Below the pieces are notes generated by a model, which was not told the DNA's origin, did no database searches, and was given only the letters and a program-made list of their open reading frames with translations. From assembly GCF_030161595.1 (NCBI RefSeq), contig NZ_BSUM01000001.1:248001-312000 (forward strand): a DNA stretch of 64,000 bases, given 5' to 3'. Numbering within the stretch: position 1 is the first letter of the stretch; the number at the start of each line of letters is the position of its first letter. The DNA is from Litorihabitans aurantiacus. GTDB taxonomy: Bacteria; Actinomycetota; Actinomycetes; Actinomycetales; Beutenbergiaceae. The translations under genes were made by a program, and so were the position numbers. Shown piece after piece: positions 32,642 through 50,058 of this stretch.

Positions 32642-33747
32642 TCAGCGGTCGACGCGCGCGTTCCCGCCGCCGGCCAGCTTGAGCACCTCGGCCTTCGTGA
32701 CCATCGTGGTGTCGCCCGGCGTCGTCATCGCCAGGGCGCCGTGGGCGGCGCCGTACTCGACCGCCGTGGCCAGGTCCTGACCGTCCAGGAGCCCGTAGAT
32801 GAGACCGGAGGCGAAGGAGTCGCCGCCGCCGACGCGGTCGAGGATCTCCAGGCCGGGCCGGTGCGTCGCCTCGACGACGCCGGTCTCGCGCGACCAGGCG
32901 AGCGCGCCCCAGTCGTTGATCGTGGCGGAGCGCACCGTGCGCATCGTGGTGCCGATGACCTTGAAGTTCGGGAACGCGTCGGCCGCCGTCGTGATCATGG
33001 ACTTGAACGAGTCCGTCTCGAGGTGGGAGAGGTCGGCGTCCGCGCCCTCGACCTCGAACCCGAGCGAGGCGGTGAAGTCCTCCTCGTTACCGATCATCAC
33101 GTCGATGTACGGGGCGATCGCGCGGTTGACCTCCTGCGCCTTCGCCTGGCCACCGATCGACTTCCACAGCGAGGGGCGGTAGTTGAGGTCGTAGGAGACG
33201 ATCGTGCCGTGCTCCTTCGCCTTCTGGACGGCGGTGATGACGGTCTCGGCGGAGACCTCCGACAGTGCGGCGAAGATGCCGCCGGTGTGCAGCCAGCGCA
33301 CGCCGTACTCGCCGAACAGGCGGTCCCAGTCCACGTCGTCGGCCCGCAGCTGCGAGGCCGCGGTGATGCCGCGGTCGGAGACGCCGACGGCGCCGCGCAC
33401 GCCGAAGCCGCGCTCGGTGAAGTTCAGGCCGTTGCGCACGGTGCGCCCGATGCCGTCGTAGGGCACCCACTGCACGAACTCGGTGTCGAGGCCGCCGGTG
33501 AGGATGAGGTCCTCCACGAGGCGACCGACCTCGTTGTCGGCGAGCGCGGTGACGATCGCGCCGCGCAGACCGAACGCGCGCCGCAGACCGCGCGAGACGT
33601 TGTACTCGCCGCCGCCCTCCCAGGCGCGGAAGCTGCGGGCGGTGCGGATGCGGCCCTCGCCCGGGTCGAGGCGCAGCATGACCTCGCCGAGCGAGACGGC
33701 GTCGAAGCGGCAGTCGGCCGCGGGGCGGATGTCGAGGGGGTGCTCAC
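32642..33747 (-). CDS. kdgK: 2-keto-3-deoxygluconate kinase (PfkB family, frameshifted)
   Basis: KdgK phosphorylates 2-keto-3-deoxygluconate to KDPG. The first residues are lost through one missing base in the G run 33736-33740. Correction from GTG 33747 gives TPLDIRPAADCRFDAVSLGE followed by the typical VMLRLDPGEGRIRTARSF. The C-terminus has the PfkB signature DRVGGGDSFASGLIYG (catalytic Asp). Corrected length is about 368 residues. It lies 49 bp after eda, so the pair converts KDG to pyruvate and glyceraldehyde-3-phosphate. Confidence 0.92.
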
Positions 33748-33796: not shown

Positions 33797-34432
33797 TCAG
33801 GCGGGGCGCAGCGACCGGGCGAGGTCGACGGCGGTGCGCGTCAGGTCGGTGATCGCGTCGAACTCGTGGGCGGCGACGGTCGCGGCGGGCACCATCCAGG
33901 ACCCGCCGACGGCGACGACGCTCGGCAGCGCGAGGTAGTCGCCGAGGTTGGCGGGGCCGACGCCGCCGGTCGGCACGAAGCGCACGTCGCCGAAGGGCGC
34001 CGCGAGCGCCTTGATGGCGGGGGCGCCGCCGGACGTGCCGGCCGGGAAGAACTTCACGGTGCGCAGGCCGAGCTCGAGCGCGGCCTGGATCTCGGTCGCG
34101 GTGACGGCACCGGGCAGGACGGCGACGCCGTGCTCCTGGCAGCGCTCGACCACGGCGCGGCTCGTGCCGGGGGAGACGACGTACTGCGCGCCGGCCTTGA
34201 CGGCGACGTCGACCTGCTCGGGGGTGAGGACGGTTCCGGCGCCGACGAGGATGTCGCCGCGGTCGGCCATCGCTCGGATCGCGTCCGGGGCGGCGGCGGT
34301 GCGGAAGGTGACCTCGGCGACGGGCAGCCCACCGGCGACGAGTGCGCCGGCGAGGCCGTCGGCGTCGGCGGCGTCCTGCAGGACGACGACCGGCACGAGG
34401 GTGGCGGCGGAGAGCTGGGAGAGGACGTCCAC
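33797..34432 (-). CDS. eda: KDPG aldolase (2-dehydro-3-deoxyphosphogluconate aldolase)
   Basis: Eda cleaves KDPG to pyruvate and glyceraldehyde-3-phosphate. In the 211 residues, VAEVTFRTAAA holds the catalytic glutamate, VGAGTVLTPEQ and VSPGTS follow, and VKFFPAGTSGG contains the Schiff-base lysine. All active-site features are present and the length is normal. It lies between iclR and kdgK, preceded by an operator-like palindrome. Confidence 0.95.
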   Translation of the reverse strand: MDVLSQLSAATLVPVVVLQDAADADGLAGALVAGGLPVAEVTFRTAAAPDAIRAMADRGDILVGAGTVLTPEQVDVAVKAGAQYVVSPGTSRAVVERCQEHGVAVLPGAVTATEIQAALELGLRTVKFFPAGTSGGAPAIKALAAPFGDVRFVPTGGVGPANLGDYLALPSVVAVGGSWMVPAATVAAHEFDAITDLTRTAVDLARSLRPA

Positions 34433-35546: not shown

Positions 35547-36347
35547 TCAGGCGTCGGCCTTCACCTCGCCCGGTCGTCCTCCCAGGTACAGCTCGGACAG
35601 CTGCGGGTCCGCGAGCAGCTCGGGCGCCGGGCCGGTGATGTGCACCCGGCCGAGGTCGAGCACGCAGCCGATGTCCGCCGTCTCCAGGGCGCGCCGGGCG
35701 TTCTGCTCGACGAGGAGGACGGCGACGCCGGCGTCGCGCATCCGCACGACCTGCTCGAACACCTTCGTGGTGGTCTTCGGGTCGAGACCCATCGAGGGCT
35801 CGTCCAGCAGCACGACCTTCGGGCTGACCATGAGCGAGCGGGCGAACTCGACCTGCTTCTGCTGGCCGCCCGAGAGCAGACCGGCCAGCTGCTTCCAGCG
35901 CTCGCCCACGATCGGGAACAGGTTCTGCACGAACGCGACCCGCTCGGCGATCTGCGCCTTGTCGCGCAGGCTGTAGGCACCGAGCATGACGTTCTCCTGG
36001 ACCGTCATCTCGCGGAAGACGCTGTGGCCCTGGAGCACGTGCGCCAGGCCCGAGCCCAGCATCTGCTGGGGTCCCTGACCGGTGACGTCCTTGCCGCCCA
36101 CGAGGATCTTCCCCGAGGCGGGCTTGAGCAGGCCGCTCGCGACCTTCAGGACGGTGGACTTGCCGGCACCGTTGGGACCGACCAGGCAGACCACGGTCGA
36201 GGCCGGCACGCGGATGGTGAGGCCGCGCAGCACCATGGCGGCCCGGCCGTAGCCGGCCTGCACGTCGTCCAGGACGAGCAGGTCGCCGTCGTCACCCCCG
36301 GCTCCGGCGGGTGAGGCGTGCTTCGGGGTCGAGGTGTCAGACGCCAA
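35547..36347 (-). CDS. livF: Branched-chain/amide-type ABC transporter ATPase LivF
   Basis: This 266-residue LivF-type ATPase has Walker A GPNGAGKST, the Q-loop region HVLQGHSVFREMTVQEN, signature LSGGQQKQ, Walker B VVLLDEPSMGLDP and the VLLVEQNARRAL switch typical of LivF. It energises import of branched-chain amino acids, or of urea/amides in sister systems. The start is tentatively a TTG at 36347 overlapping the livG stop by 11 bp. Confidence 0.9.
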   Translation of the reverse strand: MASDTSTPKHASPAGAGGDDGDLLVLDDVQAGYGRAAMVLRGLTIRVPASTVVCLVGPNGAGKSTVLKVASGLLKPASGKILVGGKDVTGQGPQQMLGSGLAHVLQGHSVFREMTVQENVMLGAYSLRDKAQIAERVAFVQNLFPIVGERWKQLAGLLSGGQQKQVEFARSLMVSPKVVLLDEPSMGLDPKTTTKVFEQVVRMRDAGVAVLLVEQNARRALETADIGCVLDLGRVHITGPAPELLADPQLSELYLGGRPGEVKADA

Positions 36348-37103
36348 GGTAGGCCTCCAGGACTCGCGGGTCGGACTGGACGATGTCGGGGGTGCCCTCG
36401 GCGATCGGGGCCCCGCGGTCGAACACGACGACGTGGTGGGACAGGCTCATCACGAGGTCCATGTTGTGCTCGACGATGAGGAACGTGGTGCCCTCGGCGT
36501 TGAGCTCCTGCACGAGCGAGCCGATCCGCCCGATGAGCGAGGGGTTCACGCCGCCCGCGGGCTCGTCGAGCATGATCGTGTCCGGGTCGCCCATGAGGAC
36601 GCCGGCGAGCTCGAGCAGCTTCTGCTGGCCGTAGGACAGGTCGCGCGCCTCGGAGTTCTCGAGGTGGTCGATGCCCACGCGGACGAGGAGCTGCCGAGCC
36701 TTGGCCACCTCGGCCTCGGTGCGGGCCGGCGCGAGCAGGCCCTTGATCCCGGTGCGCCGGACGGCGACGAGCACGTTGTCGAGCACCGTCATCCGGGGAA
36801 GATCCGGCACAGCTGGAAGCTGCGCCCGATCCCCGCGTGGGCGATGGCGTGCGGGGCCCTGCCCGTGATGTCGCGGTCCTTGAACGTGACCGTGCCCGAG
36901 TCCGGCTTGATCATGCCGGTGACGCAGTTGAAGAACGTCGTCTTGCCGGAGCCGTTCGGGCCGATGAGGGCGTTGATCTTGCCCTCGTGGAAGGTGACGT
37001 CGGCGCCGTCGACGGCGCGGACGCCTCCGAAGACCTTCGTCAGGCCGCGCGTGCTGAGGTTCGAGACGGCGGTGGTGGTCGCCGGTGCGGCGGTGGCGGT
37101 CAT
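36337..37103 (-). CDS. livG: ABC transporter ATPase LivG (frameshifted)
   Basis: LivG-type ATPase with Walker A GPNGSGKTT and GIGRSFQLCRIFP. After the break at the G run 36795-36798 come the signature LSYGQQKLLELA, Walker B TIMLDEPAGGVNP and LIVEHNMDLVM, typical of LivG. One added base gives RIFPRMTVLDNVLVA and about 255 residues. The ATG overlaps the livM stop (ATGA). Confidence 0.9.
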
Positions 37104-38304
37104 CGCTTCCCCCGGGGTTCGTGGTGGTGGCCGTCGGTGGCGTGGCCGCGTCCTCGTCCGCCGCGCCCTCGCGCTCGACGGGCCTGCCCGCGAACACCGA
37201 GGCGCCGCTGACGCCGGCCGCGCGGTTGCGCTCGGCCAGCTCGGCCGCCGTCATCTCGCGGATGGAGGAGGACTGCGGGCCGAACCGCTTGAGCAGGGAC
37301 TGCACGGCCGGGATGATCCCGTCCGGCATGAACAGCACGACCAGGGCCAGCAGGAGTCCGGTGGCCACGAGGTGGAACTGCGTGTCACCGAACTGCAGCT
37401 TGAAGACCTCCAGGCCGATGCCGACGATGATCGCGCCGACCAGCGGGCCCCACAGGTTCCGGATGCCGCCGAGCAGCGCCATCAGCACCATGTAGGAGCC
37501 GAGCAGGATCGAGAACTGGAAGATCGGGTCCAGGTCGCCGAACCACAGGGCGTACATGCCGCCGGCGAGGCCGGTGAACGTCGCGGAGATGACGTAGGCG
37601 ACCAGCTTGTAGTTGCGGGTCGGGATGCCGAGCGCCTCCGCCTTGTCCTCGTCCTCGCGGATCGCCTTGAGGCCGATGCCGAAGCGCGAGCGGTTGATCG
37701 CCCACCACAGCAGGAGCATCACCGCCAGCAGCGCGGCGAAAAGGTAGAAGAACACCTGGTGGTGCACGGGCCGCAGCAGGTCCGGGAACGGGCGGGGGAC
37801 CACGAGGCCGTTCGAGCCGCCCGTGAAGCTGCCCCAGCCCTGGAAGACCAGCAGCATGATGAGCACGAACGCGATCGAGACGATCACGAAGGACGCCCCG
37901 CGCACCCGCAGGGCGGCGATGCCGACCGGCACGGTGATGACCGCGACGATCACGCCGGCCAGCGCCCACGCCACGAAGGAGGGGAGTGCGGCGTCGCGGA
38001 TCAGGATGCCGGTGCCGTAGGCGCCGAGACCGAACCAGGCCGCGTGGCCCAGCGAGATGTAGCCCGTGAACCCGCCCATGAAGTTCCACGAGGTGGCCGT
38101 GCAGGCGTAGGACAGGATGACCACGCCGGCCGAGAGGATGTAGGCGTTCGGGGCGGCCGAGGGGAAGAGTGCGACGACCACGAGGCCGACGGCGAGGGCG
38201 GCACCGGCGAGGATCTTCCGGTTCCGGGACGTGCCGGACGGCGCGGGGCCGGCCGGTGCGGCGCCGCGCACGGGCGCTGCCAGGGTGTCAGAAGCGTTGG
38301 GCAA
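37100..38304 (-). CDS. livM: ABC transporter permease LivM (frameshifted at its 3' end)
   Basis: LivM-type permease with about nine to ten membrane helices and the conserved motif YISLGHAAWFGLGAYG; the coupling loop is ...SRFGIGLKAIREDEDKAEALG. The C-terminal ~60 residues are a hydrophilic tail. The frame should end at a TGA overlapping the livG ATG, but one base is missing in the C/G run 37109-37117, so the raw frame runs on into livG. Corrected length is about 401 residues. The start is a TTG at 38304 overlapping livH, as livF overlaps livG. Confidence 0.88.
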
Positions 38305-39172
38305 GGCGACCTCCGAAGAACCCCTGCGGACGCACCATGAGCGTCACGAACAGGGCGACGTAGAAGATGGTCTGCGCCCAGGTGGTGCCGAGCGGGACCT
38401 GGAGCAGGCTCTGGCCCACCCCGAGCACGAGGGCGGCGATGGCCGCCCCCGGGATGGACCCGAGACCGCCGACGACGATGATCGCCATGAGCGGGCCGAT
38501 CCAGTGCCAGTGGAGCGAGGGGTAGATCGTCGCGTCCAGCGAGAGCGCCGTGCCGCCGAGCGCGGCCGTCGCGAGGCCGAGGCCGAAGCCGAGACCCGCC
38601 ACGCGGTCGGTCCGGATGCCCACGAGCTGGGCGGCCTCCGGGTGCTGGATCGTCGCGCGCAGCGCCTGCCCGAAGCGGGTGTGCTTCATGAGCAGGTACA
38701 GCGCGAGCAGCGACAGGGCGGCGAGGCCGAAGGCGATGAGCTTCACGACGGCGATGCGCGCCCCGAAGATCTCGAGGCTCGCGCTCGAGTACGGCAGCTG
38801 GATGCGACGCTGCGTGCCGCCCCAGACGAAGCCGATGACGCCCTCGATGGTGAGCGCGACGGCGAACGTCAGCAGCACGGACATCATCGTGAGGGTCGCC
38901 GGCCGCAGTCGCGTGATGAGCAACCGCTGCATGAAGACGCCGATGCCGAAGAACAGGGGCACGGTGACCACGAGCGTGAGCAGCGGGTCGATGCCGAGCT
39001 CGGTGTTGGCGTACCACGCGAGGTAGGCCGCCAGCACGAGGAACGAGGCGTGCGCGATCATCACGACGCGCATGACGCCGAAGTAGAGCGTCAGACCCGC
39101 TGCCAGGAGGGCGTAGAGCCCTCCCAGCAGCACGCCCAGGATCAGGCTCTGGAGGAGGAGTGAACCGGTCAC
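38288..39172 (-). CDS. livH: ABC transporter permease LivH
   Basis: LivH-type permease of 294 residues with about eight membrane helices. The coupling loop KHTRFGQALRATIQHPEAAQLVG is intact, and GLTLYFGVMRVVMIAHASFL at the N-terminus is the family motif. It has a 7-bp gap after the binding-protein gene and forms the transmembrane channel with LivM. Confidence 0.92.
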   Translation of the reverse strand: MTGSLLLQSLILGVLLGGLYALLAAGLTLYFGVMRVVMIAHASFLVLAAYLAWYANTELGIDPLLTLVVTVPLFFGIGVFMQRLLITRLRPATLTMMSVLLTFAVALTIEGVIGFVWGGTQRRIQLPYSSASLEIFGARIAVVKLIAFGLAALSLLALYLLMKHTRFGQALRATIQHPEAAQLVGIRTDRVAGLGFGLGLATAALGGTALSLDATIYPSLHWHWIGPLMAIIVVGGLGSIPGAAIAALVLGVGQSLLQVPLGTTWAQTIFYVALFVTLMVRPQGFFGGRLAQRF

Positions 39173-39179
39173 GCGTCGA

Positions 39180-40451
39180 TCACCAGGCCGGCTTAGGGAA
39201 GATGAGCTCGGCCTCGGCGGCGTCGGCCGGGAGGACGATCTCGATCTGACCGTCGACGTACTGCTGGATGAGGTGGGCGCCCTGCGGCTTGCCCGTCTCG
39301 TCCCAGGTCAGCGGACCGACAACGGTCTCGACCTCGTTGTCGCGCAGCCAGTCGATGAGCTGCTGCTGGCACTCGCCCTGCTCGGCGCAGCCGACGGCCT
39401 CGACGGCCGCGGCCACGACCTGGCCGGTGGTGTAGGCGTTCGCCTCGTCCTCTCCGGGCGGGTTGCCGTGGATCTCGGTGTACTTCTCGACGAAGTCGAC
39501 GTTCGAGGGCCAGCTCGCGTCCGGCGTGTAGCCGGTCGGGGAGAGGATGCCCTCGGTGCGCGAGCCGATGGCCGCGGAGAACTCCGGGTTGGTCGGCGCC
39601 GTCGAGAACGCGGCGATCTGCGGCTGGTAGTTGAGCTGCTGCAGCGCGACGATCAGGTTGACCGCGTCCTGGTACTGCGTGCCGCCGATGACGACGTCGG
39701 CGCCCGAGTCCGCGATCTTGGCGGCGATCGGCGAGAAGTCGGTCGTGTTGGGCGGGTAGACCTCGTCGGCGACGATCGTCAGGCCACCCTCCTCCAGCTT
39801 GTCGCGCAGGCCGTAGGCGGTGCCCTGGGCGAACGGGTCGTCCATGGAGGCGACCGCCACGGTGGTGGGGCGCTCGCCGTCGGGCATCGCGAGGATCTGC
39901 TCGGCGAGGTAGTTGTAGTGGTCCTCGGCGATGGCCGGGGCGGCGTAGAAGAGGTTCTCGAAGCCCTGCTCGAAGACCTCGGCGGCGGCGCCGGCCGGCT
40001 CGACGAAGAGCATCCCGTACTCCTCCGCCACGCGGGCGGACGGCACCACGAGGCGCGTGGAGAACGGACCGAAGACGAGGTCGACCTCGTCCTGGGCGAT
40101 CAGCACCTCGTAGTCGGCGACGACGCGGTCCGCGTTGGACTGGTCGTCGAGGATCTTGAGCTCGACCTGGCGCCCGAGGAGCCCGCCGTTCTCGTTGACG
40201 ATCTGCGCCCAGGCCTCGTACCCGCGCTGCACGCCCTTGCCGGGCTCGGAGAAGTCCCCGGTCAGCGGGAGCGAGATGCCGATGGTGATGGGGGAGTCGG
40301 TGTCGTCACCGCCGCCCCCACCCCCGCCCCCGGCGGTGGCGCAGGCCGAGAGGCCGACGAGCGCGGCGGCGGCAGCTGCGGCCGTGAGGGCGCGGCCGCG
40401 GCCGCGTCGGACGGTGCTGGTGCCGCGGGTGCGGCGAGTGAGTGGTGCCAC
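39180..40451 (-). CDS. livJ: Liv/amide-type ABC substrate-binding lipoprotein
   Basis: The 423-residue lipoprotein has a basic start, a hydrophobic segment and the lipobox ALVGLSAC (Cys ~37), then a run of eight glycines. A type I periplasmic-binding fold follows, with ITIGISLPLTGDFSEPGKG and GYEAWAQIVNENGGLLGRQVE, typical of branched-chain-amino-acid, urea and short-chain-amide receptors. The substrate is not readable from sequence. It is the first gene of a five-gene importer (livJHMGF), divergent from a LacI regulator, which is unusual for this transporter class. Confidence 0.88.
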   Translation of the reverse strand: MAPLTRRTRGTSTVRRGRGRALTAAAAAAALVGLSACATAGGGGGGGGDDTDSPITIGISLPLTGDFSEPGKGVQRGYEAWAQIVNENGGLLGRQVELKILDDQSNADRVVADYEVLIAQDEVDLVFGPFSTRLVVPSARVAEEYGMLFVEPAGAAAEVFEQGFENLFYAAPAIAEDHYNYLAEQILAMPDGERPTTVAVASMDDPFAQGTAYGLRDKLEEGGLTIVADEVYPPNTTDFSPIAAKIADSGADVVIGGTQYQDAVNLIVALQQLNYQPQIAAFSTAPTNPEFSAAIGSRTEGILSPTGYTPDASWPSNVDFVEKYTEIHGNPPGEDEANAYTTGQVVAAAVEAVGCAEQGECQQQLIDWLRDNEVETVVGPLTWDETGKPQGAHLIQQYVDGQIEIVLPADAAEAELIFPKPAW

Positions 40452-40519: not shown

Positions 40520-40532
40520 GGAAAGCGCATTC
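40520..40532 (-). promoter_or_regulatory. LacI-type operator before the liv operon (weak)
   Basis: GGAAAGCGCATTC lies 69 bp upstream of livJ. It differs from the two stronger sites in this window (GGAAAGCGCTTCC and TGAAAGCGCTTCC) mainly in its right half. If used, it would tie the importer to the sugar regulon. Confidence 0.4.
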
Positions 40533-40561
40533 AGAAAGCGGTTACTGCACAGTAGGCTGCG

Positions 40562-40613: not shown

Positions 40614-40643
40614 GAGATGGTGTCGGAGCCTGGAGGGCGTGCG

Positions 40644-41710
40644 ATGGCGCACCGGTGGCGAGCTCAGCAGGAGGGTCGGGGCGCGGCGGCGCCGCGGTTG
40701 ACGGACGTGGCGCGGTTGGCGGACGTGTCGATCGCGACGGCGTCGCGCGCCCTGTCGGGTTCGGGCGTGGTCTCGCCCGCGCTGACGACGCGCGTGCTCG
40801 AGGCGGTGGACGCGCTGCGCTACACCGTGAACCCGCACGCGCGCTCCCTGGCGGGCGGCGCGACGTCGGTGATCGGTCTGATGGTCTACGAGATCGACGA
40901 CCCGTACTTCGGGGAGATCGCGGGCGGGGTGATCCAGGTGGCGGGGGGCGCGGCTGGAGCGTGCAGGTCAGCCACCAGGACCGCGAGGCCGCCAGCGACC
41001 TCGCCGGGGTGCGGCTGCTGCGCGCGCAGCGGGTGGGGGCGCTGGTGATCGCCGGGTCGGGCTACCGCGACCCGGCGAAGAACGCCAGCGTCAACGCCGA
41101 GCTGGAGGCCTACGCGGCCGCCGGCGGTCGGCTCGTGGCGATCGGGCGCCGCGACCTCGACTGCGACGCCGTGCTGCCGGACAACGCCGGGGCGGCCAGG
41201 GCCGCGGCCGAGCACCTCATCGGGCTCGGCCACCGCCGGATCGGCGTCGTGTCCGGGCCCGAGACCCTGACGACCGTCGTGGACCGGGGGCGCGGGATCG
41301 AGGAGGCGGCGCGCACGGCCGGGATCCCCGACGTCGTGTGGCAGCACGCGGGCTTCACGCGCGACGGCGGCCGGGCTGCGACCGCCCGGTTGCTCGAGGA
41401 GCGCCCCGACGTCACCGCGATCATCGCGCTGAACGACACGATGGCGATCGGGGCGCTCTCGGTGCTCCGCGAGCGTGGGATCGCGGTCCCCGGTGCGGTC
41501 TCGGTGACCGGGATCGACGACGTCCAGGTGGCGCAGGACGTCGCGCCCGCGCTGACGACGGTCCGGCTGCCGATGGCCGCCATGGGCCGGCACGCGGCGC
41601 ACCTGGCGCTGAGCCCCCGGCCGAGGCGCCCAGGATCGTGGAGGTCGAGCACGAGCTGGTGGCCCGCGCCTCGACCGCCCCACCCCCTGACTGCCCGCCC
41701 CACCCCCTGA
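40644..41710 (+). CDS. LacI family transcriptional regulator (two frameshifts)
   Basis: The N-terminal HTH LTDVARLADVSIATASRALSG is typical LacI, followed by the hinge and GLMVYEIDDPYFGEIAGGV. One base is missing near 40950, after which WSVQVSHQDREAASDLAG continues the sugar-binding domain. A second is missing in the C run 41614-41618, after which the corrected frame reads LSPPAEAPRIVEVEHELV. The true end is uncertain: the raw frame stops at 41710, the corrected one at 41862, or earlier with one further base. Product is about 345-400 residues. Its own operator and ligand are unknown. Confidence 0.85.
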
Positions 41711-42336: not shown

Positions 42337-42349
42337 TGAAAGCGCTTCC
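42337..42349 (+). promoter_or_regulatory. LacI-type operator before the surface protein gene
   Basis: TGAAAGCGCTTCC, a palindromic core (GAAAGCGCTTC), ends 20 bp before the start codon. It matches the site at 47845 in 12 of 13 positions. LacI-family repressors typically bind such sites at promoters. Confidence 0.7.
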
Positions 42350-42369
42350 CAACGATGAGGAGCCGGACG

Positions 42370-45300
42370 ATGACGTCAGCACGACCCCGCACGACCCCCT
42401 GGAGAGCCGGCCTGGCGCTCTCCCTCTCGACGGCGCTCGCCGTCACCCTGGCAGCGGTTCCCGGGGCCGCCGCCACGGCCGCACCGGCTGACGCTCCCGG
42501 AGCCGCCCCACCCGCACCCGAGGCTGCCGAGGCCGCACAGGCCGCCGACGCCGCGGGCTTCACCGAGCACCTCGACTTCGAGGACCTCACGGTGGGCCCG
42601 CTGGACGGTCAGGACGGCTGGACCTCCCACCCGGCCGGCCAGGTGATCCTCGACCCGGTGAACCAGAACAACCGCGCCCTCGAGCTGACGGGGGGCAACC
42701 GGTCCGCGCACCGCGCCGTCACGCCGATCGAGGACGGCACCACCGGCACGGTCTTCCTCCGCATGCGCCGGGACGCGTCGTCGGACAACTCCTTCGGCCT
42801 CACCGACGTCGACGCGCCCTCGAGCACCAGCCACAGCCGCGCCTACGTCAACAACCAGAACAGCGACGTCCTCAAGGTCCGCGACGGCGGCGCGTTCGCC
42901 GACGTCGGCACCTGGTCGGAGGACGTGTGGCAGTGCGTGTGGATCGTGGCGGACAACGCCGCGGACCGCGTCACCGTCTACACCCAGGGCGGCATCTACG
43001 ACGAGCAGACGCGTCTGCCGGCCGGCGCCGAGCAGACGTTCGGGTTCCGCGAGGCCGTCGACGGCGCGCTGGACCGCTTCTTCTGGATCAACGGCGGCAA
43101 CAGCAACGGGCGCATCATGCTCGACGACGTCGCGATCGACCCGAGCGCGGCCAACCTCGCGCTCCCCACCGGCAACCCGGGTGACTGCGAGACGGCGCCC
43201 TCCCAGGAGCAGCCGCTCGAGAACCCGCTGCCGGACCCGACCCCGGTCAGCCTCGGCATCGAGGTCGAGGAGCTGGCCCAGCTCCCCGCCTCCACCACGA
43301 CGCCCGAGACCCAGGACCAGCGCCTGATCCGGCACAACCGCGTCCAGCACGTCGACGAGGTCCCGGACGGCTCCGGCCGCCTCGCGGTGCCCGACATGAA
43401 CGCCATCCTCTACACGGTCGACGAGGAGACGGGCGACTACGTCGACTACCTGAACGTGCGCGAGCGCTTCATCGACAACTTCCACAACCACGCCGGCCTC
43501 GGCACGGGCCTCGGGTTCGCCGAGTTCCACCCGGAGTTCGCCGAGAACGGGAAGTTCTACACCGTCCACACCGAGGCGGGCTCCGCCCTCACGGAGGACA
43601 CCCCCGACTTCCCGGCCTACGGCGGCACCGGATTCCACAGCGTCATCACCGAGTGGACCGCCACCGACCCCGCGGCCGAGCGGTTCGAGGGCACGAGCCG
43701 CGAGGTCATGCGCGTCCCGTTCGCCGGCCGCGTGCACACCGTGCAGCAGATCGCCTTCAACCCGACGGTCGAGCCCGGCGACGCCGACTACGGCAACCTC
43801 TACATCCTCGTGGGCGACGGCGGCAACGGCGTCAACAACTCCAACCCGCAGGACCTCGCCACCCCGCACGGCAAGATCTTCCGCATCGACCCGCTCGGCA
43901 GCGACAGCACGAACGGCGAGTACGGCATCCCGGCCGACAACCCCTTCGTCGACGACGAGGGCGCGCTCCCGGAGATCTACGCCGTCGGCATGCGCGACCC
44001 GCACCGCATGAGCTGGGACCTCGGCGGCGAGCACACCATGTACATGGCGCACATCGGCGAGTGGCAGGTGGAGTCGGTCTACGCCGTCGAACCCGGTGAC
44101 AACTTCGGCTGGTCGGAGCGCGAGGGCTCCTTCGTCGCCCGCGACCGCCAGATCTTCCCGCTCCCGGCCGACGACGCCGAGGTGAACGACTTCACCTACC
44201 CGGTCGCGGCCTACGACCACAACCGCGACCCCGGCCAGACCGGTGACGCCGGCGTGGCCGTGAACGGCGGGTTCGTCTACCGCGGGGACATCGAGGCGCT
44301 GCAGGGCAAGTACCTGTTCACCGACCTCGTGCGCGGCTGGGTGCTGTCCACCGAGGCCGACGAGATGGTCCGCAACGCAGGTGACCCGGCCGACCTGGCC
44401 GAGATCTCGGAGCTCAAGGTGTTCGTCGACGGCGAGGAGACGACCTTCCAGGAGCTGGTGGGGGACACCCGCGTGGATCTCCGCTTCGGGTCGGACGGCG
44501 AGAACCAGCTCTACCTGGTCTCCAAGGCCGACGGGAAGATCTGGAAGGTCGTCGGCGCTCGCGAGGGCGAGGTCGAGCCGCCGTTCGAGGCCGCACCGCA
44601 GGTGCTGCCCGAGCTGGCCGAGAGTCTGGTGGCGCACTACGACTTCGACACCCCGCTCGCGGGTGACGCCACGAAGGAGACCGACCGCGGCGCCTCCGGC
44701 ACCGCGCTCGACCTCGTCAACGGCGGCGTCGAGATGCGGGTGCGCGACTCGGCCTACCCGAGCGCCGGCAACGCGCTGCAGACGCAGCAGCTGAGCAAGG
44801 GCGTCGCGTCCAACGACGACTGGAAGGCCGGTGTCTACGACGTCGACGGCGTGGCCTCGCTGGGCAGGTTCAACGGCGCCGACGCCACGAGCATCATGGG
44901 CTGGTTCAAGCCCATGGGCGAGATGCCGGCGCTCAACTCGAACACCGAGGACCCCGCGGACCGCTTCAACGCCGTCGGGCTCGCGGGCATCCTCTCGGGT
45001 ACCTCGGACGGCCACGCCGTGCGAGCGCTGCTCGAGGTGATCAACGTGAACGGCGAGCCGCACGTGGTCGGGCTCGCGCGCAGCGTCGACAGCGGGTCCT
45101 CCTGGACGTACGCGGCGGAGCTGCCGTGGGAGGAGATCCTGCGGAAGGGCGAGTGGGTGCACCTGACCGCGACGTTCGACTTCGCGGGCGGCTCGATGGC
45201 GCTGTACATGAACGGTGAGCCGCTCGAGGGCTTCTACACGAGCGCGACCAACCCGTGGGGCGAGGGCGGCACGACCGACTCCGACCCGCGCGGCATCAAG

Positions 45301-46662
45301 ATCGGCGGCAGCTTCCCGCAGAACACCCGGGAGCAGAACCCGTTCAACGGCCGCATGGACGACCTGATGTTCCTGGACTCGGCCGTGACTCCTGCGCAGG
45401 TCGCGGCGCAGTACGCGCGCTACGGCGTCACCGAGCAGCCCGAGCCGACCGTGCCGCAGTGCGCGACCGGGGGCGTCGAGCTCACGGACGTGATGGCCGG
45501 GGAGAACTGGGCCCCGCGCACGCCGGCGAAGTGGCAGTTCCCGGGCGAGGAGATCGTCCTGGTGGAGGCGGGCACGAACCCGGACGACGGCATCCGCCGC
45601 CCGTTCGAGTACGCGATCCTCTCCGAGGGCCCGGTGCTGGGCGACGTCGACCTCACCGCCCAGGTGCGGCTCGACGAGCCCGTCTCGGTCAACAACCGCG
45701 ACGTCATCCTCGTGTTCGGGTACCAGTCGGACACGGAGTACTACTACGCGCACCTGAGCCAGGACAACCGCATCTACCCCCACAACGGGATCTTCAAGGT
45801 GGACGGCGCCGACCGCGAGCGCATCGACGACCAGTGGGACGGGACCGTGGGCGCCCCGCCCGCCGTCACCGATGACGACTGGCACGACGTGCGCCTCGTG
45901 CACTGTGCCGACACGGGCGAGATCGCCGTCTGGCTCGACGGTCTGGAGCGCCCGCTCCTGACTGCCACGGACGACACGTTCACCTCGGGTCGCGTCGGGT
46001 TCGGCTCGTTCGACAACGTCGGCCGCATGCGTGACCTCACGGTGCGCGCGACGGCGGCCACCGAGCCGCCGGCGCCCGTCACCTTCGTGGACGTGACGCC
46101 GGAGACGAAGTTCGCCGCGGAGATCTCCTGGCTCGCGCAGCGCGGGGTCACCCGCGGCTGGGAGCTCCCGGACGGTACGCGGGAGTTCCGCCCGGTCACC
46201 CCGGTGGCGCGCGATGCGATGGCGGCGTTCCTGTACCGGCTGGCCGAGGAGCCCGAGTTCGAGGCGCCGGACGTCTCGCCGTTCACCGACGTCGCGACGG
46301 ACAACCAGTTCTACAAGGAGATCGCCTGGCTCCACGCCGAGGAGATCTCCACGGGCTGGGCCAACGGGGACGGGACGTACTCCTTCCGCCCGCTCGAGCC
46401 GATCGCGCGCGACGCCATGGCGGCGTTCCTGTACCGCTGGGACGACGGCCAGGACTCCGGTGTCCCGACGCCGAGCGTCTCGCCGTTCGACGACGTCGCC
46501 ACGGACAACCAGTTCTACACGGAGATCGCGTGGCTCGCCGAGACGGGTGTCGCGACCGGCTGGGTCGGGGAGGGCAACGACGGGACGACGATCTTCCGCC
46601 CGCTCAGCCCCGTCAACCGCGATGCGATGGCCGCGTTCATGTACCGGCTCGTGAACGACTGA
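42370..46662 (+). CDS. Secreted sugar dehydrogenase-LamG-SLH wall-anchored protein
   Basis: A signal peptide (~1-38, ending AAATAAPA) begins this 1430-residue protein. Domains in order: a jelly-roll-like region (~64-260); a glucose/sorbosone-dehydrogenase-type six-bladed propeller (~318-735, with GMRDPHRMSWD and GDNFGWSEREG); a LamG/concanavalin region (~750-1020); another beta-sandwich with LVFGYQSDTEYYYAHLSQ (~1037-1230), resembling DUF1080-type 3-keto-glycoside hydrolase folds; and three S-layer-homology repeats (~1237-1430, each ending RDAMAAFLYR or a variant) that bind the cell wall. The ATG at 42370 follows GAGGAG. A LacI operator precedes it. The enzyme probably oxidises a sugar or glycan at the cell surface; PQQ dependence and substrate are inferred. 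Confidence 0.85.
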   Translation: MTSARPRTTPWRAGLALSLSTALAVTLAAVPGAAATAAPADAPGAAPPAPEAAEAAQAADAAGFTEHLDFEDLTVGPLDGQDGWTSHPAGQVILDPVNQNNRALELTGGNRSAHRAVTPIEDGTTGTVFLRMRRDASSDNSFGLTDVDAPSSTSHSRAYVNNQNSDVLKVRDGGAFADVGTWSEDVWQCVWIVADNAADRVTVYTQGGIYDEQTRLPAGAEQTFGFREAVDGALDRFFWINGGNSNGRIMLDDVAIDPSAANLALPTGNPGDCETAPSQEQPLENPLPDPTPVSLGIEVEELAQLPASTTTPETQDQRLIRHNRVQHVDEVPDGSGRLAVPDMNAILYTVDEETGDYVDYLNVRERFIDNFHNHAGLGTGLGFAEFHPEFAENGKFYTVHTEAGSALTEDTPDFPAYGGTGFHSVITEWTATDPAAERFEGTSREVMRVPFAGRVHTVQQIAFNPTVEPGDADYGNLYILVGDGGNGVNNSNPQDLATPHGKIFRIDPLGSDSTNGEYGIPADNPFVDDEGALPEIYAVGMRDPHRMSWDLGGEHTMYMAHIGEWQVESVYAVEPGDNFGWSEREGSFVARDRQIFPLPADDAEVNDFTYPVAAYDHNRDPGQTGDAGVAVNGGFVYRGDIEALQGKYLFTDLVRGWVLSTEADEMVRNAGDPADLAEISELKVFVDGEETTFQELVGDTRVDLRFGSDGENQLYLVSKADGKIWKVVGAREGEVEPPFEAAPQVLPELAESLVAHYDFDTPLAGDATKETDRGASGTALDLVNGGVEMRVRDSAYPSAGNALQTQQLSKGVASNDDWKAGVYDVDGVASLGRFNGADATSIMGWFKPMGEMPALNSNTEDPADRFNAVGLAGILSGTSDGHAVRALLEVINVNGEPHVVGLARSVDSGSSWTYAAELPWEEILRKGEWVHLTATFDFAGGSMALYMNGEPLEGFYTSATNPWGEGGTTDSDPRGIKIGGSFPQNTREQNPFNGRMDDLMFLDSAVTPAQVAAQYARYGVTEQPEPTVPQCATGGVELTDVMAGENWAPRTPAKWQFPGEEIVLVEAGTNPDDGIRRPFEYAILSEGPVLGDVDLTAQVRLDEPVSVNNRDVILVFGYQSDTEYYYAHLSQDNRIYPHNGIFKVDGADRERIDDQWDGTVGAPPAVTDDDWHDVRLVHCADTGEIAVWLDGLERPLLTATDDTFTSGRVGFGSFDNVGRMRDLTVRATAATEPPAPVTFVDVTPETKFAAEISWLAQRGVTRGWELPDGTREFRPVTPVARDAMAAFLYRLAEEPEFEAPDVSPFTDVATDNQFYKEIAWLHAEEISTGWANGDGTYSFRPLEPIARDAMAAFLYRWDDGQDSGVPTPSVSPFDDVATDNQFYTEIAWLAETGVATGWVGEGNDGTTIFRPLSPVNRDAMAAFMYRLVND

Positions 46663-46752: not shown

Positions 46753-47805
46753 ATGCGCGATCGAACGACCCTGAGCGACGTGGCCCGGGAGGCGGGCGTC
46801 TCGCTCGCGACGGCGTCCCGCGCGATCAACGGTTCGGCCGACCGGTCGGTCCGGCCCGAGCTCGTCGCGCGCGTGCGCGCCGCCGCGGAGGCGCTGCACT
46901 ACAGCCCGGACGCGACGGCGCAGGCCATGGCCCGCGGCCGGACCACCACGCTCGGCCTCCTCGTGCACGACATCGCCGACCCGTACTTCTCGGCGATCGC
47001 CTCCGCCGTCGTCCGCACGGCCGAGGCCGAGGGGCTGCAGGTCTCGCTCGCGACGACGCAGAACGACCCCGCCCGCGAGGCCGCCCTGCTGGACCTGGTG
47101 CGGCGGCAGCGGGCCCGCGCCGTCGTCATCGCCGGCGGGCGGTCGGCCGGTGCGGATGCGGAGCGCGACGGCGCCGACCCGGCCTCCTCCGCCCTGACCG
47201 ACGCCCTGACGGCGCTCGCGCGTCAGGGCGTCGGCGTGGCCGCGATCGGCCAGCCGGTCCCGGGGGTGGCCTCGGTCGCCGTCGACAACGCCGGCGGCGC
47301 CGCGGCGCTCGCGGACGCGCTGCTCGGGCGCGGCTACCGCCGGTTCGCGCTCCTGGACGGCCCGGCCGACCGCGTCACCGCCCGCGACCGGCGTGACGCG
47401 TTCGAGGCCGCTGCGCGCGCCGGGGGTGGCGACGTCGTCGCCCGCGAGCGCACGCCCTTCACCTGGGAGGGTGGCCACGAGGGCCTCGACAGGCTCGCGG
47501 ACGCGGGTGTGCTCGCCGAGGTCGACGCCGTCGTCGCCACCAACGACGTGATGGCGCTCGGGGCGCTGGCCGCCGCCCGGGCCCGGGACCTGAGCGTGCC
47601 CGGCGACCTGGCCCTGGCCGGGTTCGGCGGGATCTCGACGCTGCGCGACGTCGTGCCCGGCCTCACCACCGTCGCGGTGCCGATGGAGGAGCTCGGGGTG
47701 CGCGCGGTGCGCCTCGCCCTGGGCGACCCCGCGACGACCCGCGACGTCGTGGAGCAGGTGGGCTGCGACGTCGTGCTGCGCGACTCGACGCCACCGCTGG
47801 ACTGA
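46753..47805 (+). CDS. LacI family transcriptional regulator, candidate local repressor
   Basis: The intact 350-residue protein has the HTH LSDVAREAGVSLATASRAINGS and hinge residues up to QAMARG, then a periplasmic-binding-like effector domain (LLVHDIADPYFSAIAS, TNDVMALGAL). It is placed between two transcription units that both carry GAAAGCGCTTCC-type operators, so it is the best candidate for the regulator of this sugar regulon. The ligand is unknown. The ATG at 46753 begins RDRTTLSDVA. Confidence 0.9.
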   Translation: MRDRTTLSDVAREAGVSLATASRAINGSADRSVRPELVARVRAAAEALHYSPDATAQAMARGRTTTLGLLVHDIADPYFSAIASAVVRTAEAEGLQVSLATTQNDPAREAALLDLVRRQRARAVVIAGGRSAGADAERDGADPASSALTDALTALARQGVGVAAIGQPVPGVASVAVDNAGGAAALADALLGRGYRRFALLDGPADRVTARDRRDAFEAAARAGGGDVVARERTPFTWEGGHEGLDRLADAGVLAEVDAVVATNDVMALGALAAARARDLSVPGDLALAGFGGISTLRDVVPGLTTVAVPMEELGVRAVRLALGDPATTRDVVEQVGCDVVLRDSTPPLD

Positions 47806-47844: not shown

Positions 47845-47857
47845 GGAAAGCGCTTCC
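47845..47857 (+). promoter_or_regulatory. LacI-type operator before the Gfo/Idh operon
   Basis: GGAAAGCGCTTCC lies 27 bp before the ATG at 47885. It has the same palindromic core as the sites at 42337 and 53863. Confidence 0.72.
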
Positions 47858-47884
47858 CTCGGATCTGACAGCAACGGAGCCACG

Positions 47885-49043
47885 ATGACCCGCACCCTTC
47901 GCATCGCCATGAACGGCATCACCGGCCGGATGGGGTACCGCCAGCACCTGCTGCGCTCGATCCTCCCGATCCGCGAGCAGGGGGCGTGCAGCTCCCCGAC
48001 GGCTCGCGGCTCCAGGTCGAGCCCGTGCTCGTGGGCCGCAACGCCGAGAAGGTCGAGGCCCTGGCGAAGCAGCACGACGTCGAGCACTGGACGACCGACC
48101 TCGACGCCGTGATCGACGACCCCGCGACGGACATCGTGTTCGACGCCTCGATGACGTCGCTGCGCTACGAGACCCTCGCCCGCGCCATGCGGGCCGGCAA
48201 GCACATCTACACCGAGAAGCCGACGGCGGAGACGCTCGCCGAGGCGGTCGACCTCGCGCGGATCCGCCGGGAGACCGGGGTGAGCGCCGGCGTCGTGCAC
48301 GACAAGCTGTACCTGCCCGGCCTCGTGAAGCTGCGCCGGCTCGTGGACGAGGGGTTCTTCGGCCGCATCCTGTCGCTGCGCGGCGAGTTCGGCTACTGGG
48401 TGTTCGAGGGGAGTTCCAGCCGGCGCAGCGCCCGTCGTGGAACTACCGGAAGGAGGACGGCGGTGGCATGACCACCGACATGTTCTGCCACTGGAACTAC
48501 GTCCTCGAGGGCATCATCGGCTCGGTCGAGACCGTCTCGAGCCAGACCGTCACGCACATCCCCACGCGCTGGGACGAGCGGGGCGAGGCCTACGACGCCA
48601 CGGCGGACGACGCCGCCTACGGCGTCTTCCAGCTTCGCACCCCGCAGGGCGACCCCGTGATCGCGCAGATCAACTCCTCCTGGGCCGTGCGCGTGCACCG
48701 CGACGAGCTCGTGGAGTTCCAGGTCGACGGGACGCACGGCTCCGCCGTCGCCGGCCTGTTCAGCTGCGTGGCGCAGCAGCGCGGCAGCACGCCCAAGCCC
48801 GTGTGGAACCCCGACCTCCCGACCACCGAGAAGTTCCGCGAGCAGTGGGCCGACGTGCCCGCCAACGCCGAGCTCGACAACGGGTTCAAGGCGCAGTGGG
48901 AGGAGTTCCTGCGCGACGTCGCGGCCGGGCGCGAGCACCGCTTCGACCTGCTGTCGGCCGCGCGCGGGGTCCAGCTGGCGGAGCTCGGGCTGCGCTCCTC
49001 CGACGAGGGCCGGCGTCTGCCGGTGCCGGAGATCGCGCTGTGA
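47885..49043 (+). CDS. Gfo/Idh/MocA family oxidoreductase (two frameshifts)
   Basis: This NAD(P)-dependent sugar or inositol-type dehydrogenase-family protein opens with TLRIAMNGITGRMGYRQHLL. Deletions at the G runs 47980-47984 and 48418-48421 break it. Corrected, it reads EQGGVQLPDGS, then GKHIYTEKPTAETLAEAV (the conserved EKP), FEGEFQPAQRPSWNYRKEDGG and a C-terminal alpha/beta domain, about 386 residues. Members oxidise a sugar ring hydroxyl. Overlap with the TIM-barrel gene (GTGA) indicates a two-enzyme catabolic step. Confidence 0.88.
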
Positions 49044-50058
49044 GCGCCGAGTCGGCCCTCGGGGGCGACGGCGCGCTGGGGACACTCCCGGCGCCGGTCG
49101 TCGACGTCGACGCGGGCCGTCCGGCCGACCTCGCGCGCCTCTCGCTCAACACCGCGACCGTCAAGCACCTCACGCTCGCGCAGGCGGCGCAGGTGGCGGC
49201 CGACGCGGGGCTGAGCGCGATCGGGCCGTGGCGCGACCGGGTGCAGGAGGTCGGGGCGCCGGCTGCCGCGCGGATCCTGGCCGACCACGGGCTGCGCGCG
49301 TCCTCGCTGTGCCGCGGCGGGTTCCTCACCGCCGTCGACACCGAGGGCCGCCGCGCCGCGCTCGAGGACAACCGCAGGGCGATCGAGGAGGCCGCGACGA
49401 TCGGGGCCACCGAGCTGATCATGGTCGTGGGCGGGCTGCCCGCGGCGACGGCGCCCGGGGGCCGGCGGCGCCGTACGCGCCGGTGGCGGCCGACGGTGGT
49501 CCCGGAGCTTCCGGGGCCGCGGCGGGTGCCGGCGGTGTCGATCCCGGCCGCGACCTCGTCGGTGCACGCGCCCGGGTGGCCGACCGGATCGGCGAGCTCG
49601 TGCCGTTCGCGGCGCAGCACGGGGTGCGCCTCGTGCTCGAGCCGCTGCACCCGATCTTCGCGGCGGACCGCGCCGTGATCTCCACGCTCGGCCAGGCGCT
49701 GACGATGGCGGAGCAGTTCGAGAGCTCCGCCGTCGGCGTGGTGGTGGACACCTACCACGTGTGGTGGGACCCGCGGCTGCGCTCGCAGATCCACCGGGCC
49801 GGGATGGAGAAGCGCATCGCCTCCTACCAGGTGTGCGACTGGACGCTCCCGCTCGCGGCCGACCCGCTGCTCTCGCGCGGGCACGTCGGTGACGGGTACG
49901 TCGACTTCGCCTCGATCACGAACTGGATCGCGGCGACGCGGTACCGGGGTGACGTCGAGGTCGAGATCTTCAACGCCGAGGTCTGGGACGCGCCGGCCGA
50001 GGCCACGCTGGCGACGATGGTCGAGCGCTACCGGCGGCACGTGGCGCCGCACCTGTAG
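49040..50058 (+). CDS. TIM-barrel sugar phosphate isomerase/epimerase-like protein (frameshifted)
   Basis: This xylose-isomerase-like AP endonuclease-2 family protein includes ELIMVVGGLPAATAP, LVLEPLHPIF, GVVVDTYHVWWDP and EVEIFNAEVWD, the metal-ligand strands of such barrels (E, D, H and E). The frame breaks in the G run 49457-49461; correction gives about 339 residues. Partners of Gfo/Idh dehydrogenases often isomerise or eliminate the resulting keto-sugar. The GTG start at 49040 overlaps the upstream stop. Confidence 0.87.

Follow-up and report, generated by a model that had tools for sequence, protein, structure and literature searches.

What might be the role of a secreted protein that joins a sugar dehydrogenase-like propeller to lectin-like sandwiches and a possible wall anchor? 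The question is raised by a 1435-residue open reading frame (ORF, 42355-46662) in a 64,000-nucleotide stretch of the genome of Litorihabitans aurantiacus (contig NZ_BSUM01000001.1, positions 248,001 to 312,000; hereafter the window), which belongs to a 3.85-Mb draft. We tentatively put forward that the product is a secreted, glycan-binding protein of the GSDH fold, whose most likely activity is the oxidation of a sugar end and which forms part of a sugar-utilisation regulon under the control of a LacI-family regulator. The domains, their conservation, the operator-like sites, the gene neighbours and the swapping of tails are read from sequence, and from them we infer carbohydrate binding, oxidation, the direction of flow, the regulator that would bind the sites and attachment to the wall.

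The four-domain core and its tails

The ORF is not a chance one, since its third-position GC is 0.97 and its core is kept in 18 relatives. The first-pass annotation had described a single secreted protein of 1430 residues; the ORF is real and a signal sequence can be recognised by eye, but the second ATG (42370), five codons inside the frame, had been taken as its start. Pfam-A places a GSDH domain (PF07995) at residues 382-670 (74.3 bits, cut-off 25), a Laminin_G_3 domain (PF13385) at residues 925-1017 (48.6 bits, cut-off 27.6) and SLH sequences at 35.1 bits (cut-off 20.8), with two stretches over the cut-off; three FRP-x-x-P-x-x-RDAMAAF repeats start at residues 1278, 1344 and 1414. The GSDH, LamG and triple SLH assignments made earlier are thereby borne out, as is, in a predicted structure, the sandwich fold of the C-terminal domain, but a further sandwich at about residues 69-265 had not been separated. 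It has no Pfam match, and the corresponding part of a structural model of the core resembles a domain of the A. muciniphila sialidase Am1547 (8hls; Z 18.2, 166 aligned residues, root-mean-square deviation (rmsd) 2.2). No cytochrome domain was found by Pfam in the 1435-residue protein.

The core (residues 66-1236) is not unique, because it is 69-83% identical in the 18 relatives, which belong to several actinobacterial families. The cores of S. arcticus (L024) and of genome G001 are both 83% identical to that of the window, and the latter adjoins it in the tree (94/95). Counting rows that match more than 1000 query residues, the core is present in 8 of 59 genomes, its own included, while in the other 11 genomes with matches the similarity lies only towards the SLH end. 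With one genome taken per species, 46 relatives of the propeller were found, 14 of which (L024-L037) are 74-86% identical in the best segment. Of 396 genomes of the order, 16 encode the C-terminal sandwich, 14 of them in open frames of 1310-1687 residues; in each of the three carriers outside the alignment (G473, G548 and G649), a single frame spans the propeller end, LamG and the sandwich. In a Streptomyces locus (L038), LamG is a separate upstream ORF and the propeller and C-terminal sandwich remain fused. Two further genomes of the L089-L092 set show other arrangements: G521 has a 772-residue frame with the propeller end and C-terminal sandwich without LamG, and in G665 the sandwich is split across three frames. 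One contig filed as Sphaerisporangium (L036) falls within Cellulosimicrobium in the tree, which points to a mislabelled record or a transfer.

The version with SLH repeats is limited to three proteins, and the four-domain core is shared much more widely. Many such sequences exist, but no description of GSDH joined with SLH, LamG or DUF1080 was found in listings of the openly licensed literature. The earlier statement that GSDH enzymes are usually single-domain does not hold as a rule for this genome, where open frames of 704, 1440 and 1709 residues account for three of the five GSDH matches (the others have 427 and 513). The family is itself common, with a match in 240 of the 396 genomes sampled of the phylum. 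Three of the own-genome proteins (L071-L073) have frames of 704, 1709 and 513 residues, two of which look prematurely ended. L071 and L072, like the window protein, appear by eye to be secreted and to join GSDH to partner domains, but the partners are ThuA-like and PKD-like (again by eye) and an Arg-Asn pair, discussed below, is retained.

Beyond residue 1236, the tails differ. SLH tails are found in the window protein, in S. arcticus and in L006, where a Big_2 domain precedes them, and none was seen in 19 other carriers (16 aligned proteins inspected by eye, together with G473, G548 and G649). Elsewhere the tail carries Big_3_5 (L033), Big_6 below the cut-off (L007) or nothing over the cut-off (L025, L026 and L037). 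A single gain of the SLH tail is the simplest account, because all three proteins that carry it group as one clade in the tree of the core (100/100 support). Judged from these alignments, tails are swapped after residue 1236, and the SLH anchor is an add-on limited to the Serinibacter clade. Given this restriction, the anchor was rejected as a conserved feature. LPXTG anchoring of the relatives was likewise rejected, since the motif was not seen by eye in their tails. In Serinibacter, the three SLH repeats would hold the protein on the wall, and relatives have other tails; the family may serve as an example of a surface anchor added late onto a ready-made secreted protein. For the CsaB-type pyruvyl transferase, PF04230 matches at two places in the genome over the Pfam cut-off, but the best CsaB score (63.1) is far below its cut-off of 213.1.

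Operator-like sites and gene neighbourhood

A palindrome, TGAAAGCGCTTTCA, was idealised from a LacI-type site just upstream of the ORF (42337; Table 1) and used as a search pattern. With up to two mismatches it has two matches in the window (0.02 expected), the second lying at 40520, where the solute-binding protein and LacI genes diverge; the two are 1.8 kb apart and are the sole matches in the genome. A weaker site precedes the Gfo/Idh/MocA gene, and no other site of 11/14 was found in the window. The pattern recurs in related genomes: 15 related loci hold 24 sites of at least 11/14, compared with 0.25 sites per 15.4 kb in mononucleotide shuffles of one locus. Twenty-one of the 24 are placed between -60 and +260 bases relative to the point at which a gene for the fusion, the solute-binding protein, LacI, Gfo/Idh/MocA or KDPG aldolase was called to begin. 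The remaining three (two in L034, one in L035) have positions like those in L033, where the simple gene caller picked an earlier start. Where a site overlaps a called start, as some do, the real start of the gene may be further downstream.

Gene content around the core was compared over 16 loci (the window and L024-L038) by our own gene calls. A LacI gene is near the core gene in 10 of the 16, a solute-binding protein and permease in eight and a Gfo/Idh/MocA gene in five. In G001, importer genes resembling those of S. arcticus in sequence adjoin the fusion. Among the 19 proteins scanned, the neighbours of relatives without an importer had no common theme. The importer, an IclR gene, and the KDPG aldolase and kinase genes lie on one strand of the window, an arrangement that would fit a sugar acid as the imported compound. 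Collectively, the operator-like sites appear to tie the 1435-residue protein to importer and sugar-metabolic genes, and related loci repeat the pattern. Together with the neighbours, they support a role in sugar processing. Through this link, growth tests and gene removal could reveal the substrate.

Several points weigh against this proposal. The site at 42337 supplied the pattern, so only the match at 40520 is independent; the reversed control pattern has four forward matches genome-wide, so that two matches do not exceed the background and the weight of the pair lies in position only. Sites of 11/14 are missing from three of the 15 related loci (L025, L028 and L030), and several of the 15 are closely related to one another. 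The KDPG aldolase and PfkB kinase genes are found at only 4 of the 16 loci, the other stretches being too short to tell. Moreover, importers of the branched-chain type mostly transport amino acids and related acids, not sugars.

The frames at 47986-50058 and 40617-41710 are broken relative to S. arcticus, through either draft errors or decay of the genes.

Table 1. Features of the window, with coordinates counted from its first nucleotide
Feature	Coordinates	Strand	Basis and remarks
Secreted multidomain protein, 1435 aa	42355..46662	+	ORF, third-position GC, Pfam, 18 relatives; GSDH propeller, three concanavalin A (ConA)-like sandwiches, SLH tail
Sec-type signal sequence, residues 1-42	42355..42480	+	By eye
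N-terminal ConA-like sandwich, residues about 69-265	42559..43149	+	Structural match of core model
GSDH-type propeller, residues 284-745	43204..44589	+	Pfam PF07995, profile matches, motif table; H461, R547, D548 at pyrroloquinoline quinone (PQQ) positions
LamG domain, residues about 750-1026	44602..45432	+	Pfam Laminin_G_3; outer limits by alignment
C-terminal ConA-like sandwich, residues 1036-1234	45460..46056	+	AlphaFold2 model; previously read as DUF1080-like
Three SLH repeats, residues 1244-1434	46084..46656	+	Pfam and repeat motif
LacI-type operator TGAAAGCGCTTCCC	42337..42350	.	18 nt before ATG of the ORF; search pattern idealised from here
LacI-type operator GGAAAGCGCATTCA	40520..40533	.	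Between divergent solute-binding protein and LacI genes
Weaker operator GGAAAGCGCTTCCC	47845..47858	.	11/14; before Gfo/Idh/MocA gene
LacI-family regulator	40617..41710	+	Pfam; frame broken near N-terminus relative to S. arcticus; only ORF residues 97-321 align to L024
Peripla_BP_6 solute-binding protein	39180..40451	-	Pfam; same cluster in 8/16 loci
Branched-chain-type permease	38288..39172	-	Pfam
Branched-chain-type permease and ATPase, single frame	36337..38304	-	Pfam
ATP-binding cassette (ABC) ATPase	35547..36347	-	Pfam
KDPG/KHG aldolase	33797..34432	-	Pfam; also L033-L035, 4/16 loci
PfkB-family sugar kinase	32642..33679	-	Pfam; 4/16 loci
Second LacI-family regulator	46753..47805	+	Pfam
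Gfo/Idh/MocA oxidoreductase	47986..49043	+	Pfam; split over two frames here, one ORF in L024
Xylose-isomerase-like TIM barrel	49228..50058	+	Pfam; only ORF residues 78-276 align to L024

The propeller and its candidate PQQ ligands

In a profile search against PDB sequences, the propeller matched HHIP best, followed by Asd-type enzymes and sGDH. HHIP shares the fold without being a dehydrogenase, and is an animal signalling protein rather than a bacterial sugar enzyme; it has Asp-Pro at the RDP position, as does the family of the window protein, but His where Arg stands here. The AlphaFold2 model of the whole core has a pLDDT of only 48 (pTM 0.31) and was read only in its better N- and C-terminal parts, so the assignment of the propeller rests on sequence. 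Propeller structures are absent from the structural matches listed for the core model, which is no evidence against the fold.

The catalytic His and the Arg of the PQQ enzymes are present in all 50 aligned GSDH sequences (four duplicates, L005, L010, L011 and L074, and matches spanning fewer than 150 residues having been removed). The column of H461 corresponds to His144 of sGDH by our own placing, in an alignment without an sGDH row. The residue after the conserved Arg is Asp in 20/20 members of the family but Asn in 29/30 other GSDH sequences, and at the second position past the His the family has Val (18) or Met (2), where 29/30 outside it have Gly. The sole outside exception after the Arg is L039, with His, which breaks both motif rules for the other GSDH proteins; the Asd-type chain 2g8s has Arg-Asn at the aligned pair. 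The 20 Asp residues are not 20 independent events, because 19 of the rows are at least 69% identical to the window core. In the AA12 enzyme CcPDH, Asn431 makes a bond to O-4 of the quinone, which Arg430 also adjoins, and the counterpart of the catalytic His144 of sGDH is His363 (PMC6881789). The same article has AA12 and sGDH, both PQQ enzymes of the GSDH fold, differing in other ligands.

PqqD has no match in the genome to which the window belongs, and PqqE passes the cut-off in none of eight carriers, a test made without a positive control in which none of 14 control genomes passed either; weak background matches occur in all eight carriers and all 14 controls. By the measure of conservation, the propeller is the foremost domain, 19 sequences agreeing at 257 of its 462 positions, compared with 86/215, 107/279 and 87/201 (38-43%) in the three sandwiches. 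The inference is that its function is conserved, with or without PQQ.

Similarities to known enzymes are partial. The soluble PQQ sugar dehydrogenases of PF07995 (sGDH of Acinetobacter, Asd of E. coli and Streptomyces 3das) likewise have a GSDH domain over the cut-off with His and Arg, but the family described here differs in its Asp, in its much larger size, in its three sandwiches and in the result for PqqE given above. Fungal AA12 enzymes, too, go against a single-domain rule, as they have three domains (PMC4332668). CcPDH (cytochrome-AA12-CBM1) is also a secreted multidomain protein of the GSDH fold with a carbohydrate-binding partner, but it retains Asn431, and the window protein has other partner domains and lacks a Pfam cytochrome.

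The C-terminal sandwich and the competing readings

According to the first-pass annotation, residues 1037-1230 form a DUF1080-like domain with a possible keto-glycoside hydrolase fold. The AlphaFold2 model of this region, built from 17 sequences, is a beta-sandwich of good quality (pLDDT 84, pTM 0.84). Its nearest structures are CBM66 of Bacillus subtilis (4azz; Z 18.3, 161 aligned, rmsd 2.6) and the thrombospondin C-terminal domain (2rhp; Z 18.3, 177 aligned, rmsd 2.9), which are 14 and 19% identical over the aligned residues, a likeness of fold only. Two putative glycosyl hydrolases, which we take to be DUF1080 folds, rank lower (4jqt, Z 15.9; 3imm, Z 14.4), as does a 3-keto-glycoside eliminase/hydratase (9fbe; Z 14.3, 167 aligned, rmsd 3.1). 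Plain Foldseek gives the same order, with thrombospondin and CBM66 chains leading and DUF1080-labelled and 3-keto chains from rank 10 (E about 1e-6). PF06439, the DUF1080 family, has no match in the whole protein up to E 1, and only one in the 17 sandwiches, at E 0.053; TSP_C, Laminin_G_3 and Methyltransf_FA match more of them, all weakly. The motif G[YH]E[VI]Q is present in none of the 17 but in eight of nine PF06439 regions of the order (own-genome L001 included), among which it is diagnostic, the ninth region ending before the motif. Comparison of the PF06439 and sandwich profiles, both shallow, gave a probability of 0.3%; equally shallow comparisons of each sandwich with PF06439 and of the sandwiches among themselves were all insignificant, and the C-terminal profile found nothing among PDB sequences up to E 1. 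Collectively, the missing family match, motif and profile similarity leave a keto-glycoside hydrolase unsupported. Given the shared fold, a remote kinship with PF06439 may exist, but in the model residues 1030-1236 look more like a sugar-binding domain than a second enzyme domain.

In the reading we favour, the three ConA-like sandwiches would bind carbohydrate and present it to the propeller, which would oxidise the sugar end; as the tests run turned up no PQQ gene, the PQQ would have to be acquired from the environment. The co-regulated branched-chain-type ABC importer would then bring the product into the cell, where it would be processed by the Gfo/Idh/MocA, TIM-barrel, sugar kinase and KDPG-aldolase enzymes, with the LacI-family regulator encoded alongside controlling the set. 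PQQ-dependent sugar oxidation is possible on the sequence evidence, and with scavenged cofactor it is most likely the role of the propeller, our first choice narrowly ahead of a role without PQQ. In that other role, itself a reading to be taken seriously, the propeller would be a binding scaffold or a non-redox enzyme (lactonase, lyase or hydrolase), similar to HHIP. The two family-wide substitutions beside the His and Arg, the rank of HHIP and the search for PQQ genes all argue for it, and the Asn-to-Asp change and the result for PQQ genes also tell against oxidation, but the His and Arg are retained in every family member and differences in ligands already occur among PQQ enzymes of the fold (PMC6881789). 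E. coli, a member of the control set, has a GSDH match and is not known to make PQQ, so a lack of PQQ genes does not exclude the use of PQQ. A bolder proposal, which we consider rather unlikely, is that these secreted proteins of the GSDH fold, with Asn fixed as Asp, are a separate family of actinobacteria that has moved beyond PQQ chemistry and acts on an extracellular glycan in a step not yet described, within a dedicated LacI-controlled route that leads through the branched-chain-type ABC importer.

Two further readings fare less well. An adhesin-like or structural protein, in which propeller and sandwiches merely bind host, plant or self glycans, would account for three lectin-like sandwiches, SLH or immunoglobulin-like tails and the similarity to the thrombospondin C-terminal domain; we think it improbable, as the gene shares operator-like sites with importer and sugar-metabolic genes and the propeller is more conserved than the sandwiches. 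Very improbable is the proposal that the propeller makes a 3-keto sugar which the C-terminal sandwich cleaves as a 3-keto-disaccharide hydrolase. The ConA-like sandwich does resemble the fold of such hydrolases (DUF1080; e.g., BT2157) at Z 14-16, with CBM66 and the thrombospondin domain nearer, one member has its marginal PF06439 match, and the neighbouring Gfo/Idh/MocA and TIM-barrel genes recall the 3-keto levoglucosan route, of which TIM-barrel proteins are part, but the family tests above speak against it. Six-bladed GSDH enzymes, furthermore, oxidise C1. DUF1080 proteins hydrolyse 3-keto sugars (PMC9007349), and Gfo/Idh/MocA enzymes contribute to levoglucosan breakdown inside the cell, which runs through 3-oxidation and beta-elimination (PMC7676230). 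What is corrected here is a tempting reading as a keto-glycoside hydrolase, which the tests leave unsupported.

The same genome holds two other proteins that bear on wall-anchored keto-sugar chemistry. One (L002, G000:C1:1556070-1559291) joins PF06439 to SLH in a frame that is apparently broken. The other (L001, G000:C1:3413588-3417124) is a 1677-residue frame in which CBM35 and a complete PF06439 domain (125.8 bits) are combined with a xylose-isomerase-like TIM barrel and the beginning of SLH-like repeats. As a candidate wall-anchored keto-sugar enzyme, it surpasses the ORF at 42355-46662.

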